A stretch of DNA of 64,000 nt from Solitalea canadensis DSM 3403 (lineage in GTDB: Bacteria; Bacteroidota; Bacteroidia; Sphingobacteriales; Sphingobacteriaceae), in assembly GCF_000242635.2 (NCBI RefSeq), contig NC_017770.1, forward strand, positions 5,096,669 to 5,160,668. Reading direction: 5' to 3'. The notes below the pieces were generated by a model, which had not been told where the DNA came from, searched no databases, and worked only from the letters and a program-made list of their open reading frames with translations. This document shows positions 28,779-33,034 of this stretch, one piece after another (the stretch's first letter is position 1; each line of letters starts with the position of its first letter). The position numbers and the translations under genes are program-made.

Positions 28779-29123
28779 ATGAGTCAGCCGCAGTTTGAGT
28801 TAAATGGCAGAATTTGGATCGATACACCTAATGGAAAATTTTTAGGGCATGGGAGAGTTGAACTAATGGAACGGATTCATGCAAGCGGCTCTATAAGGCA
28901 GGCTGCCCTTCAGATGAAAATGTCGTACAAACAAGCATGGGATTTGGTTAAATATATCAATGAAAATATTGGTGAACCAATTATTATTTCACAGCGAGGC
29001 GGCAAAGGTGGCGGAAGGGCAGTTATTACCGAAAGAGGATTAAGTATTATTGATCAGTATAGAGAACTTCAAAAAAAATTCCATGAGTTTTTAATATCAC
29101 AATCTTCTAAAATGAAACTGTGA
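28779..29123 (+). CDS. ModE-type winged-helix transcriptional regulator, single domain
   Basis: The 114-residue product is a stand-alone version of the DNA-binding half of ModE, the molybdate-responsive regulator. The winged helix covers nearly all of it: GRVELMERIHASGSIRQAAL, then MSYKQAWDLVKYINENI (recognition helix), then the wing with QRGGKGGGRAVITERG. These are the conserved ModE N-domain features. The C-terminal MOP/TOBE domains that bind molybdate in E. coli ModE are missing, so how it senses metal, if it does, is unclear. The ModE-box-like operator 95 bases downstream suggests it controls the following three genes. Confidence 0.85.
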   Translation: MSQPQFELNGRIWIDTPNGKFLGHGRVELMERIHASGSIRQAALQMKMSYKQAWDLVKYINENIGEPIIISQRGGKGGGRAVITERGLSIIDQYRELQKKFHEFLISQSSKMKL

Positions 29124-29217
29124 TGTACTAAATAGTTTTAGCTAGTAATTTCTGAAAATTTTAATAAAAAGCATGATATAAATCATAGTATCAATCTTTG
29201 TTATTGTTTTAAATTTG

Positions 29218-29243
29218 TCGTTATATTTACAAAAGTATAACGA
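29218..29243. promoter_or_regulatory. ModE-box-like operator
   Basis: TCGTTATA (29218-29225) and TATAACGA (29236-29243) are perfect 8-bp inverted arms with a 10-base centre. Written as CGTTAT-N12-ATAACG, this is the half-site and spacing of the E. coli modA operator as I remember it. It lies between the ModE-like gene and the peroxidase gene, just upstream of a possible promoter (TTG 29266, near -7 match at 29286). Confidence 0.7.
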
Positions 29244-29295
29244 TATTTATGAAACAAGTTTATTGTTGTTCCTTTATTATTTACCAATTTTTGCC

Positions 29296-30414
29296 ATGAA
29301 ACACCCAATTATTTCTAAAATAGTTGGTGTTAACTGGCTTAAACTATTCTTCCTTGGAACAATCTTATCATTCATTTTATTTTCTGCATTAGCTGCAGAT
29401 GACTACAAGCCTACTCTCTATAATCTAACCTATCCTTCCTATTTCGGGAATAGATTCTCAATTCCTTCTGACAATCCTTTAACAAATGAAGGAATTTATT
29501 TAGGTCGAAAATTATTCTACGAAACTCGTTTGTCTGCAAACAGAAAAATCTCTTGTGCTAGTTGCCATAAGCAAGAGAAGGCCTTTTCTGATGATCGCGT
29601 TGGAAGTATCGGTGTCGACGGTTCTGTTACAGAGCGAAACTCAATGGCGATTGTTAATCTACTCTGGGCCAGAAAATTCTTTTGGGATGGACGGGCTATT
29701 GGTTTAGAGCAACAAGCTGCTATTCCATTGGCCAATCCACATGAAATGGGGCAATCCGCAGCGCTATCAGCTGTTATTTTAAGAAAGATTAAGGGATATC
29801 CGTATTTGTTTAAACATGCATTTGGTGATACTGCTATTACCGCAGATCGTATTGTTAAAGCCATAGCTCAGTTTGAAAGAACGCTTATTTCGGCAGATTC
29901 TCCTTATGATAAATATTTGCGAAACGAGTATTCACCGTCGCAAATTGAATTGGAAGGAATGGGACTCTTTATGACAGCCCCGCAACCAGGTAAAGGCATA
30001 CGTGGTGCAAACTGCGCCCATTGTCATGGTGGCGAGAAAAGTTATTTAGAGATGTTTCATAATAACGGACTTGATAGCATTTACAAAGATGCAGGTATAC
30101 AATTGCTTACCGGTTTTGAGACCGATCACGGCAGGTTTAAGGCTCCTACATTACGAAATATTGCACTAACAGCTCCTTACATGCACGATGGCCGGTTTAG
30201 TTCCCTGGAAAAGGTATTGGATCATTACAATGGGCCCTTACATCCACATCACTTAAGTTCTTTTTTAAAAGGAAGTTCCAACAATGAGGGAGGACTTACA
30301 TTGGGGCTAACCAATAAGGAGAAGATGGCCATTGTTTCATTTCTGCACATGCTAACCGATTCATCATTTGTGAAAAATCCTGCATTTTCTGATCCTAATA
30401 AAGAAACAAACTAA
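29296..30414 (+). CDS. Di-haem cytochrome c peroxidase (MauG/CcpA family)
   Basis: This periplasmic di-haem enzyme reduces peroxide or oxidises a partner. The frame is open from further upstream, but that extension would cover the operator, so I use the ATG at 29296; the product is 372 residues. It starts with a membrane/signal segment (LKLFFLGTILSFILFSALAA). Two haem-binding motifs are present: C87-x2-C90-H91 (CASCHKQ) and C240-x2-C243-H244 (CAHCHGG). PTLRNIALTAPYMHDGRF is a family hallmark. The second gene of the ModE-like locus, it is followed by the receptor gene 15 bases later. A role in processing the imported ligand or a partner protein is only inference. Confidence 0.9.
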   Translation: MKHPIISKIVGVNWLKLFFLGTILSFILFSALAADDYKPTLYNLTYPSYFGNRFSIPSDNPLTNEGIYLGRKLFYETRLSANRKISCASCHKQEKAFSDDRVGSIGVDGSVTERNSMAIVNLLWARKFFWDGRAIGLEQQAAIPLANPHEMGQSAALSAVILRKIKGYPYLFKHAFGDTAITADRIVKAIAQFERTLISADSPYDKYLRNEYSPSQIELEGMGLFMTAPQPGKGIRGANCAHCHGGEKSYLEMFHNNGLDSIYKDAGIQLLTGFETDHGRFKAPTLRNIALTAPYMHDGRFSSLEKVLDHYNGPLHPHHLSSFLKGSSNNEGGLTLGLTNKEKMAIVSFLHMLTDSSFVKNPAFSDPNKETN

Positions 30415-30429
30415 AAATTGCAATATACT

Positions 30430-32409
30430 ATGAACAAATTTTACTATTTGATAGGTATGACAAGCCTATCTATGGCTGCTAATGCCCAAACTGTTGACAG
30501 CTTACCTGTTACAGAAAGGGTTTTTAAGCTGGGAGAAGTAGTCGTTTCCGGTAAAAAGAATAATGAGACCAGCATTTTAACCAACGAAAAAATAGAAATG
30601 TTTAATCAACAGGATGCGTCGGGGGCCTTGAATTTATTACCAGGCATTAATTTGTCGAAGGTTGGGGCCAGAAACGAATCGGTCGTATTGGTCAGGGGAT
30701 TTGACCTGAGGCAGGTTCCTGTTTTCATTGATGGAATTCCTGTTTATGTTCCTTATGATGGTTATGTAGACCTTGGACGCTTTACAACGTTCGATATATC
30801 TCAGATCAATGTTGCGAAAGGTTTTTCATCTGTAACATTTGGGGCCAACACCCTGGGTGGTGCTATTAATATTGTTTCAAGGCGACCATTGAACAAATTT
30901 GAGATTGATGCAAGTGCAGGTTTAATGAATAGCGAAGGGCACCGTCTTGGTTTAAATATGGGTTCAAAAGTGGGTAGATTTTATGTTCAGGGAAGTGTTT
31001 CACAATTGAAACAACAAAGCTATTTGCTTTCATCTGATTTTATCATCAAGCCGCTTGAAGATGGCAACGACCGGAATAATGCTTACAGGAACGATAATAA
31101 ATACACTATTAAAGTTGGTTTTACTCCACGAAGAAATGATGAGTACGCGTTGAGCTATATGAAACAAGATGGACAAAAAGGCAATCCTCCTTATGTTGGA
31201 AATGATCCATTACAAAAGGCCCGTTTTTGGCAGTGGCCTTATTGGAATAAGGAGAGTGTCTATTTCATTTCTTCAACAGGAATTACCGGAAACAGCGCTT
31301 TTAAAACGCGATTGTATTATGATAAATTTAAAAATCAGCTGAATGCTTACGACGATGCTACGTATTCAACACAGACTAAGCCCTCGTCATTTCAAAGTTT
31401 TTATGATGATGATACTTATGGTGGTGGACTTGAATATGATGCTCAATTGATCCAAAAACATTTGATTAAAACATTTATTCAATACAAAAACGATCGTCAC
31501 AAGGAACATAATTTAGGAGAGCCAATTCGGACTTACAGAGATTATACCATTTCTGCAGGAGTAGAGGATTCCTATAAGGTAAGTGATAAATTAATACTTA
31601 CCCCTGGTGTAAGCTTTAATTTACGTGGTAGTCTTCAGGCGCAAGATTATAATTCTTCAACAAAGGAAATTGCCGATTATCCTGAAAATAATAACAATAC
31701 ATTTAATGTGCAGCTTGGTGCCGTTTATCAATTTAATGACTTTAACAAGCTAAATGCTTCTGTTGCAAGAAAATCACGATTTGCAACAATAAAGGATAGG
31801 TACTCATATCGGATGGGGGCTGCGATTCCTAATCCGGATCTTAAGGCTGAAATGGCTAATCACTATGAAGTGGGTTATTCAGGGAGATTAATAAGCAAAT
31901 TGGGTATGGAGTCAAGTGTGTTTTATAGCCGTATTTCTGATGCAATACAACAGGTAAATAACGTAAAGCCTAATACTTATCAGCTACAAAATACCGGCAA
32001 AGCAGCGTTTTACGGGGCAGAATTATCGTTAAAATATGATATTCTTAATAACTGGTATACAGTAGCTCAATACAGCTATTTACATCGCGATAATTTAAGT
32101 AATAAGGAAATAAAGTTTACAGATGCACCTGAAAATAAAATGGTTGTTTATTCTCAGTATAGTTTTAATAGCCGTTTTTCGGTATTAGCAGGAACTGAAT
32201 ACAACTCGGCCCGCTACAGTACAAGTTATGGAACAAAAGCTGATGAATTTGCAATTGTAAATTTAGGCGTTCAGGCTAAAATTTATCGTTGGGTTTCAGC
32301 AGAGGCAGGTGCAAATAATGTGTTTGATAAGAACTATTCAATTAGTGAAGGTTACCCTGAACCCGGGCGGAATTGCTTTGTCAGTTTGGTTATTAATAAT
32401 ATAAAATAG
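30430..32409 (+). CDS. TonB-dependent outer-membrane receptor
   Basis: This 22-strand beta-barrel receptor imports a scarce ligand with TonB energy; it has 659 residues from the ATG at 30430 (a TTG twelve bases upstream is in frame). Signal peptide MNKFYYLIGMTSLSMAANAQ. The plug domain runs from about 35 to 165 with VLVRGFDLRQVPVFIDGIP and GANTLGGAINIVSRRP. The barrel fills the rest and ends in a short hydrophobic strand. There is no N-terminal carboxypeptidase-like or SusD-partner feature, so it is not a typical glycan receptor; it resembles metal or siderophore receptors. Its place downstream of a ModE-box-like site suggests molybdate or tungstate, which is inference. Confidence 0.92.
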   Translation: MNKFYYLIGMTSLSMAANAQTVDSLPVTERVFKLGEVVVSGKKNNETSILTNEKIEMFNQQDASGALNLLPGINLSKVGARNESVVLVRGFDLRQVPVFIDGIPVYVPYDGYVDLGRFTTFDISQINVAKGFSSVTFGANTLGGAINIVSRRPLNKFEIDASAGLMNSEGHRLGLNMGSKVGRFYVQGSVSQLKQQSYLLSSDFIIKPLEDGNDRNNAYRNDNKYTIKVGFTPRRNDEYALSYMKQDGQKGNPPYVGNDPLQKARFWQWPYWNKESVYFISSTGITGNSAFKTRLYYDKFKNQLNAYDDATYSTQTKPSSFQSFYDDDTYGGGLEYDAQLIQKHLIKTFIQYKNDRHKEHNLGEPIRTYRDYTISAGVEDSYKVSDKLILTPGVSFNLRGSLQAQDYNSSTKEIADYPENNNNTFNVQLGAVYQFNDFNKLNASVARKSRFATIKDRYSYRMGAAIPNPDLKAEMANHYEVGYSGRLISKLGMESSVFYSRISDAIQQVNNVKPNTYQLQNTGKAAFYGAELSLKYDILNNWYTVAQYSYLHRDNLSNKEIKFTDAPENKMVVYSQYSFNSRFSVLAGTEYNSARYSTSYGTKADEFAIVNLGVQAKIYRWVSAEAGANNVFDKNYSISEGYPEPGRNCFVSLVINNIK

Positions 32410-32424
32410 AACAAGCACTTAACT

Positions 32425-32928
32425 ATGAGAATAAGCTATTATTTCTTTTTATTGATGCTGTTAGAGGTATTTCCACTGGCAGTAGATGGACAGAGCTTAA
32501 CGAAACAAGCTTCCGTTACAATTAGCGGGGAAGTAAAAACACCTGTTGAATTAAAAGTTGAGGATATAAATAAGATGGAATTGACGCAGGTAACGAAGAA
32601 GGATAAGAATCAGGTTGAGCATATTTATTCCGGTATTGAGCTATCTCAGCTACTAAGTACTGCAGGTGTAGCTTTAGGAAAGGAGCTAAGAGGGGAACAT
32701 TTGCTGAAGTACTTGCTAATTGAAGCAAGTGATGGTTATCAGGTGTTGTTTTCACTTGCGGAAGCGGATCCTGAATTTGTTTCAAGGAAGATCATTTTAG
32801 CAATTAAAAAAGATGGAAGTCTACTGCCATCAGATGAAGGTCCGTTTCATATTATTATTGATGGCGAAGGGAGAGGCTCTCGAAACGTGAGACAAGTAAC
32901 TTCAATAAAAGTGAAGTTTGCTGATTAA
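32425..32928 (+). CDS. Small secreted molybdopterin-binding-domain protein
   Basis: The 167-residue product has a signal peptide (MRISYYFFLLMLLEVFPLAVDG) and one domain that resembles the oxidoreductase molybdopterin-binding fold (sulfite oxidase/YedY type, PF00174) in short form: VTISGEVKTPVELKVEDI, then YSGIELSQLLSTAGV, then EASDGYQVLFSLAE and GPFHIIIDGEGRGSRNVRQV. The cofactor-ligating cysteine and the arginines of true enzymes are not evident, so it may bind a ligand rather than catalyse. It is the last gene of the locus, 15 bases after the receptor, and is followed by a hairpin-rich repeat. The family assignment is from motif memory. Confidence 0.75.
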   Translation: MRISYYFFLLMLLEVFPLAVDGQSLTKQASVTISGEVKTPVELKVEDINKMELTQVTKKDKNQVEHIYSGIELSQLLSTAGVALGKELRGEHLLKYLLIEASDGYQVLFSLAEADPEFVSRKIILAIKKDGSLLPSDEGPFHIIIDGEGRGSRNVRQVTSIKVKFAD

Positions 32929-32934
32929 ATTACC

Positions 32935-33018
32935 GCGAAGTCGCGAAGGCGCTAAGAGTTTTATTATTCTTTATTGTAAAAACAACGAAGGCGCTAAGAG
33001 GGATTCTTAGCGCCTTCA
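32935..33018. repeat. GCTAAG-type repeat with strong hairpin between convergent genes
   Basis: A direct copy (CGCGAAGTCGCGAAGGCGCTAAGAG, 25 bases from 32935) is followed by GAAGGCGCTAAGA (32987-32999) and its perfect reverse complement (33005-33017), a 13-bp stem with a 5-base loop. It can terminate the receptor operon and the DoxX gene. Related to the repeats at 10274, 18966 and 39432. Confidence 0.75.
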
Positions 33019-33034
33019 CGGCTTGTTTGATATC

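Follow-up and report, generated by a model that had tools for sequence, protein, structure and literature searches.

A probable accessory operon for TonB-driven molybdenum uptake in Solitalea canadensis and other Bacteroidota

Closest described systems and the locus

ModE regulons with modABC are known from Escherichia coli and Geobacter, and the known or predicted ligands of TonB receptors include iron, B12, nickel, copper and zinc. Among the matches listed for TonB combined with molybdate or ModE (judged from titles and the starts of abstracts, with subscription papers outside the search and "mode" also being a common word), we found no literature assignment of a TonB receptor to molybdenum. 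Here we describe a locus of Solitalea canadensis DSM 3403 in which the genes for a ModE-like regulator, a di-haem protein, a TonB receptor and a small PF00174 protein follow one another on the + strand. It lies in a stretch of 64,000 bases, hereafter the window (G000:C1:5096669-5160668; G and L numbers are our labels for genomes and loci), of a genome that forms a single contig of 5,202,069 bases. Judged from sequence comparisons, the locus is likely an accessory, ModE-repressed, TonB-driven operon for molybdenum uptake across the outer membrane.

The locus shares with the regulons of E. coli and Geobacter the operator consensus and spacing, a ModE-like DNA-binding domain (scoring below the family cut-off) and, in 8 of the 80 relatives analyzed below, a modABC operon alongside. 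It differs from them in that its ModE is without both molybdate-binding domains, its operator stands before an outer-membrane receptor operon, and the genome has no detectable modA. A ModE reduced to a single DNA-binding domain is also described in Desulfovibrio, where the sensing mechanism is likewise called not clear (PMC545781). The operator given for Desulfovibrio in that paper is CGGTCACG-N14-CGTGACCG, whereas the one found here is of the E. coli type.

The other three proteins also have described counterparts. The receptor carries the plug and barrel domains of the TonB metal receptors for siderophores, B12 and copper-methanobactin (MbnT), but its metal, judged by regulation and neighborhood, would be molybdenum, and its partner proteins are different. 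With MbnH/MbnP and MauG, the di-haem protein has in common two CxxCH haems, a MauG/MbnH-like sequence and a receptor as neighbor, as reported for methanobactin operons (PMC3621798); it differs in scoring below the family cut-off, in an operon without an MbnP match, and in standing next to a protein of the sulfite-oxidase (SUOX) fold. That small protein is like PruR in its length of about 170 residues, its signal-peptide-like start, its stand-alone SUOX fold and its lack of a molybdenum-ligating cysteine. It is unlike PruR in having no DcpA/DTB or sensor kinase gene beside it in the window, in having no tryptophan (Trp160 in Agrobacterium tumefaciens PruR, PMC13259868) and in its molybdenum context. 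Molybdate delivery involving an outer-membrane protein is reported for ModA-IcmP of Pseudomonas aeruginosa, but in that case a type VI system secretes ModA, which interacts with IcmP (PMC11734730), while the outer-membrane component here is a TonB receptor.

Conservation of the gene set and its operator

A scan of species genomes with the receptor alignment gave 425 relatives, and our counts cover the best 80 (46-66% identity). Relatives occur in Pedobacter, Spirosoma, Fibrisoma, Larkinella, Runella, Dyadobacter, Emticicia, Flavobacterium, Chitinophaga, Niastella, Olivibacter, a metagenome-assembled genome of the Saprospiraceae, and others. A gene was counted as a neighbor if its midpoint lay within 6 kb of the receptor, and it was labeled by its best phmmer match to reference proteins first named by eye. 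Ten references were checked and agreed with their names: for ModC, MoeA, XdhC, MocA, MoaE, NarK and MobA the corresponding family was the best or top-ranking match, under the NCBIfam cut-offs; the MoeA, XdhC and MoaE references were over the Pfam cut-offs.

By this measure the small protein accompanies the receptor in 71 of 80 loci, ModE in 54, the di-haem protein in 35 and a TauE protein in 6. At least one of ModE, the small protein and the di-haem protein is present in 78 of 80. An earlier note on this DNA, made from the letters alone, had held that its proposal would fall if the neighbors differed in all relatives; nearly all of them keep a partner. It had also suggested looking across Bacteroidota for the same four-gene order together with ModE boxes and molybdenum genes. 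The set does recur, with operators in 59 of 80 loci and molybdenum genes within 6 kb in 14 (modABC in eight, cofactor-synthesis genes without modABC in six), but the order of the middle genes varies. The commonest arrangements are ModE-receptor-small (26 loci) and ModE-receptor-di-haem-small (17), followed by receptor-small, receptor-small-di-haem and modABC-receptor-di-haem-small with five each. The order seen in the window, ModE-di-haem-receptor-small, recurs in two Pedobacter. Flavobacterium johnsoniae CI04 (L103) has the ModE-receptor-small arrangement, and Dyadobacter fermentans (L093) also carries the locus.

The operator is a palindrome, TCGTTATA-N10-TATAACGA, that lies between the ModE gene and the other three and has both arms perfect. 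It fits the published ModE consensus, ATCGNTATATA-[N6]-TATATANCGAT (PMC545781). When the window was scanned with up to three mismatches allowed, this site was the one match, with 0 mismatches, compared with an average of 0.41 matches at up to three mismatches in shuffled sequence. The pattern TCGNTATA-N8..12-TATANCGA occurs a single time in the whole genome, at this site, and a control pattern 0 times. The ModE-box-like operator that the letters alone had suggested before the last three genes is thus real as a pattern and the sole strict match in the genome.

In the relatives, operators were counted from 300 bases before to 120 bases after the start of the receptor open reading frame, or of the di-haem frame where that gene directly precedes the receptor. 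The form CGNTAT-N12-ATANCG stands before the operon in 35 of 80 relatives, with 0.02 expected from dinucleotide shuffles; its total is 44 occurrences in 1.47 Mb. This strict CG-box test alone missed Flavobacterium. A second form, CAGTAT-N12-ATACTG, is found in 24 other loci (0.0 in shuffles), all of them Flavobacterium and in the same place or behind ModE; it was spotted by eye in ten loci and then counted on the same loci, a single data set serving for both. The two forms, which together account for the 59 loci, share a 6-12-6 geometry, with both arms changed together and the 12-base spacing kept.

The consensus of Bacteroidota promoters is TTTG / TAnnTTTG. In the window the putative promoter has only the TAnnTTT of TAnnTTTG, and a TTG lies 24 bases upstream of this -7-like element. 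In 19 of 35 CG-type loci, as against 1 of 35 for the other strand, a perfect TAnnTTTG directed towards the operon falls within the box or directly adjoins it, which is the position of a repressor site.

The regulator itself matches TIGR00637, the ModE_repress domain, at 2e-24, with 85.5 bits against a cut-off of 98.5, and thus below it. Its 114 residues contain no Mop/TOBE molybdate-binding domain, and PF03459 had no match genome-wide at an E value of 0.001 (12 of 14 controls were positive). By sequence it is probably of the DNA-binding-domain type of ModE, not a full ModE. At residue 49, which falls within MSYKQAW in the helix-turn-helix region, the window's ModE has a serine, as do 26 of 26 CG-type loci with ModE, and 17 of 17 CAGTAT-type loci with ModE have an alanine; residue 51 is lysine in 19 and arginine in 7 of the former and arginine in all 17 of the latter. 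These counts take in every ModE-bearing locus among the 59 operator loci and are not corrected for kinship, and the split at residue 49 could come from kinship alone because the CAGTAT-type loci are all Flavobacterium. Eleven further ModEs come from box-less loci; nine have Ser49, one (Flavobacterium) has alanine and one aligned as tyrosine.

Boxes and genes of the ModE type also occur in other settings. In two genomes (G020 and G055) a box of the same type lies between ModE and a porin-modABC operon, the porin being identified by Pfam in G020 only. The porin genes in this arrangement, at L067:6924-8195 and L068:6773-8044, have modABC behind them and a ModE-type box ahead and are of the Alginate_exp type, with PF13372 tested in L067; such a porin may be another outer-membrane partner for molybdate uptake. 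In six genomes (L059-L064) a protein of 852-862 residues adjoins ModE, and in four of them a ModE-type box lies between the two. The four of these proteins tested with Pfam (L059, L060, L061 and L063) are TonB receptors, and the group is a candidate second family of molybdenum receptors. At two more loci (L065:8291-10395 and L066:8144-9209), ModE-like genes stand near a protein of 189-199 residues with a signal-like start, alike by eye; a chromate transporter (PF02417) lies between in L065 and a ModE-type box in L066, and these loci are possibly another oxyanion system.

Association with molybdenum cofactor genes

For the family of S. canadensis we analyzed 101 genomes, an even sample of a larger group. 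Of these, 57 contain moaC over the cut-off (G084, with a weak moaC fragment, was counted as without). The small protein was matched in 14 genomes (E 0.001), the receptor in six (E 1e-90) and ModE in 13 (E 1e-5), and all of these matches, 14 of 14, 6 of 6 and 13 of 13, fall in genomes with moaC (Fisher p 2e-4, 0.034 and 4.5e-4, respectively, with kinship not corrected). Confinement to such genomes is what a molybdenum system predicts, and a copper system gives no reason for it. One of the six receptor genes (in G077, L058:7058-8902) is broken by a stop into two reading frames.

All four genes are again together in G052 and G072, arranged ModE-receptor-di-haem-small. Neighbors of the small protein are modABC in five genomes (G025, with the di-haem gene between, G035, G037, G002 and G027), molybdenum cofactor synthesis genes in six (G035, G037, G003, G086, G018 and G001) and ModE in G100. 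Altogether, 13 of 14 small proteins have a molybdenum or ModE setting; the other, in G015, is on a 7.3-kb contig without any of the molybdenum genes sought. The receptor lies among cofactor-synthesis genes, followed by a TauE/SafE gene, in G037, G015 and G077, and in G015 its cluster is adjoined by xanthine-oxidase-type subunits.

The cells have cofactor-synthesis genes of their own (moaA, moaC, moaE, moeA and mobA). The source genome has three PF00384 proteins, one of which is a molybdopterin oxidoreductase of 751 residues clustered with nirB, a narK-like gene, moaE and moeA. The earlier statement that the window has no modABC holds, and for modA the absence extends to the whole genome. The nitrite-reductase and cofactor cluster contains instead a TauE/SafE (PF01925) gene (L021:9607-10350, that is, G000:C1:2357609-2358349). 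Pfam confirmed the TauE/SafE identity for this copy and for that of G037.

With a threshold of 1e-20, fixed before the search, the TauE protein was found in 38 of 101 genomes, and modA exceeded its cut-off in 20. Each of the 57 moaC genomes has one or the other, G037 alone having both, and the remaining 44 genomes have neither; TauE/SafE is thus found in place of modA in 37 of the 57 cofactor-making genomes. Eight more genomes have a modA-profile match under the cut-off and were counted as without modA; six of them have TauE and moaC, and two (G063 and G082) have neither. Given this distribution, the TauE/SafE protein is probably the inner-membrane molybdate permease of these bacteria, and it could also act in some other step of cofactor use. 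We considered the receptor as a plain replacement for modA and rejected this: same-genus genomes without modA are likewise without a receptor match, and the TauE gene fits better.

Proteins of the operon and competing explanations

The features of the locus are collected in Table 1. The open reading frames bear out the four same-strand genes seen from the letters, the last three of them separated by gaps of 15 bases (di-haem to receptor, receptor to small protein). The di-haem frame is open from a TTG at 29215, and the ATG at 29296 begins a signal-peptide-like stretch; by eye, such starts are seen on the di-haem protein, the receptor and the small protein. The small-protein gene is flanked by the receptor on one side and by an opposite-strand MauE-like gene on the other. 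Sequence of the GGCGCTAAGAG type follows the gene at 32930-33030 in repeated and inverted copies, which may be a terminator or a repeat element.

Table 1. Features of the locus (positions in the window)
Feature	Position	Strand	Basis
ModE-like repressor, DNA-binding domain only, 114 aa	28779..29123	+	TIGR00637, alignment with 11 family ModEs
Putative Bacteroidota promoter	29197..29229	+	TTTG 29197-29200, TATATTTA 29222-29229; overlaps operator
ModE operator TCGTTATA-N10-TATAACGA	29218..29243	.	Pattern search and published consensus
Di-haem periplasmic enzyme, MbnH/MauG type, CxxCH twice	29296..30414	+	PF03150, TIGR04039, 6e1c
TonB-dependent outer-membrane receptor	30430..32409	+	PF07715 plug, PF00593 barrel
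Small secreted SUOX-fold protein ("mini"), 167 aa	32425..32928	+	PF00174, AlphaFold model, PruR folds

The receptor exceeds the cut-offs for both its domains, with 67.5 bits for the plug (PF07715) and 105.5 bits for the barrel (PF00593). The di-haem protein matches PF03150 (CCP_MauG) with 195.8 bits (7.5e-58), and its best NCBIfam match is TIGR04039, the MbnH family, with 270 bits, under the cut-off of 362.85. Its nearest solved relative is the "Di-heme enzyme" 6e1c (E 6.4e-53), which we take to be an MbnH. The haem motifs are CASCH and CAHCH in the window. In an alignment of 37 di-haem sequences, window included and L130 left out as a duplicate of L028, the first CxxCH is intact in 36 (one gap) and the second in 35 (one gap, one serine). 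A tyrosine, Y311, is present in 35 of 37 (two gaps); it stands opposite MauG 294, presumably the distal haem ligand Tyr294, provided that the end of the alignment (312 = 295) has no gap. No match to MbnP was obtained for any of the six proteins compared with NCBIfam, which include the operon's four. The di-haem gene is an optional part of the locus, since it is present in 35 of 80 loci. A candidate role in modifying a receptor residue found no support: when receptors from loci that have the di-haem gene were compared with those from loci that lack it, no W, Y, H, C or M column showed a frequency difference above 0.6. This comparison holds both duplicates L130 and L028 and is not corrected for phylogeny; a further duplicate pair among the loci is L149 and L056.

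The small protein had been noted as a PF00174-like, molybdopterin-binding protein. The domain is there, at 34.2 bits over a cut-off of 24, but none of the 167 residues is a cysteine, and a molybdenum-ligating cysteine is therefore absent; nor does the protein contain any tryptophan. In its AlphaFold model (predicted local distance difference test score, pLDDT, 87.8) the nearest stand-alone solved folds are PruR pterin-binding proteins, one with neopterin bound, and by these comparisons it looks like a pterin-binding PruR rather than a molybdenum enzyme. Across the relatives, a CxSG cysteine motif occurs in 25 of the 37 copies that have no di-haem gene within 6 kb but in 0 of the 36 that do have one, a comparison not corrected for phylogeny. 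The CxSG cysteine could not be mapped on the molybdenum-ligating cysteine of sulfite oxidase, as the profile found no sulfite oxidase and the model had a pLDDT of 42.5.

Several observations weigh against an operon for molybdenum uptake. The nearest solved relative of the receptor is the B12 receptor BtuB, which it matches best in the plug region. In 66 of 80 relatives none of the molybdenum genes looked for lies within 6 kb, and neither operator form was found in the searched region of 21. One locus (L136) has neither the operator nor any of the three partner genes (ModE, small protein, di-haem) nearby, another (L132) has the operator only, and a third (L084) the di-haem gene and operator only. 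Sampling is uneven, with many Flavobacterium and Dyadobacter, and counts on the 80 loci are not independent. A TTG 22-27 bases upstream of the -7-like element in the box is seen in just 2 of 36 loci, a -33 element at fixed spacing being rare. A TOBE sensor domain has no match in ModE or elsewhere in the genome. Finally, the receptor match at 1e-90 is absent in 51 of 57 moaC genomes, including two of three genomes of the same genus, and because most moaC genomes are without it the receptor is not essential for molybdenum use.

The receptor could also import an organic molybdenum complex, such as a catecholate-type molybdophore, a molybdenum-pterin or released cofactor; the PruR-like protein would then bind the organic part and the di-haem enzyme oxidise it, freeing the metal. 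We regard this as possible, if rather unlikely. TonB receptors usually serve for ligands whose size or scarcity puts them beyond porins, the small protein has its neopterin-bound structural relative, and the di-haem protein is on the MauG/MbnH side of its superfamily. PruR is moreover reported to prefer reduced pterins, but the pterin-binding Trp160 described as mostly conserved in PruR (PMC13259868) has no counterpart in the tryptophan-free protein of the window, the modABC neighbors of 8 of 80 loci handle the inorganic ion, and the cells have their own genes for making the cofactor. If the small protein were instead a sulfite-oxidase-like molybdoenzyme, as its PF00174 domain might suggest, the locus could be a periplasmic redox system with the di-haem protein as electron partner and ModE merely controlling a molybdoenzyme. 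To this we give little credence: the small protein has no cysteine to ligate molybdenum, it is far more constant near the receptor than the di-haem gene (71 versus 35 of 80), and in the five family genomes where it adjoins modABC the di-haem gene lies between them in one.

A copper system of the methanobactin kind, with an MbnT-like receptor and an MbnH-like di-haem enzyme acting on a copper-binding partner, would account for the best NCBIfam match of the di-haem protein, and MbnH/MbnP pairs are reported to adjoin MbnT receptors (PMC3621798). It is nevertheless very improbable, given a di-haem protein that scores below the MbnH cut-off, the lack of an MbnP match for any of the six proteins tested, and an operator, ModE, modABC and cofactor neighbors that all point to molybdenum (the relatives were searched for molybdenum genes, not for copper genes). 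ModE systems and oxyanion receptors seldom discriminate between molybdate and tungstate, and the same system might serve tungsten or vanadium as its physiological metal. Of the explanations considered we find this the least credible, in view of the xanthine-oxidase-type subunits beside the receptor cluster of G015 and the nitrate-reductase-like PF00384 protein in the nitrite-reductase and cofactor cluster of the source genome; enzymes of both types usually carry molybdenum. The earlier note had proposed an outer-membrane uptake or redox system for molybdate, tungstate or a complex of them, with copper or another metal as a fair alternative. Operators and links to molybdenum genes, all of them sequence evidence, support the proposal and leave copper the weaker case.

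In the scheme that we infer for molybdenum uptake by this operon, shortage of the metal would release the ModE-type repressor from the palindrome, which overlaps the putative promoter. The TonB receptor would pull molybdate or a complex of it, possibly also tungstate, through the outer membrane, and in the periplasm the small SUOX-fold protein, as a partner, would take over or process the ligand. The di-haem protein might oxidise partner or ligand in the periplasm, so that metal is captured or released. For entry into the cytoplasm some relatives would use ModABC, and this genome the TauE/SafE permease from among the cofactor genes. A more specific route free of ModABC, which we consider distinctly unlikely, would have the receptor import molybdenum on a small organic carrier, perhaps a reduced pterin, held by the PruR-like protein; the di-haem enzyme would oxidise either the carrier, which drops the metal, or the small protein, which can then hold it, and TauE/SafE would bring molybdate in. 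The distribution of the CxSG motif with respect to the di-haem gene can be cited for such an oxidation of the small protein enabling it to hold metal.

A receptor under the control of ModE would suggest that the outer membrane can limit the molybdenum supply of common soil and freshwater bacteria. If the TauE/SafE protein is a molybdate permease, this would account for their ability to take up molybdate in the first place. For the di-haem enzymes of the MauG/MbnH type, the locus adds a SUOX-fold protein as a new neighbor, and it presents a ModE without a sensor domain, with an operator and a helix-turn-helix that vary together from group to group.

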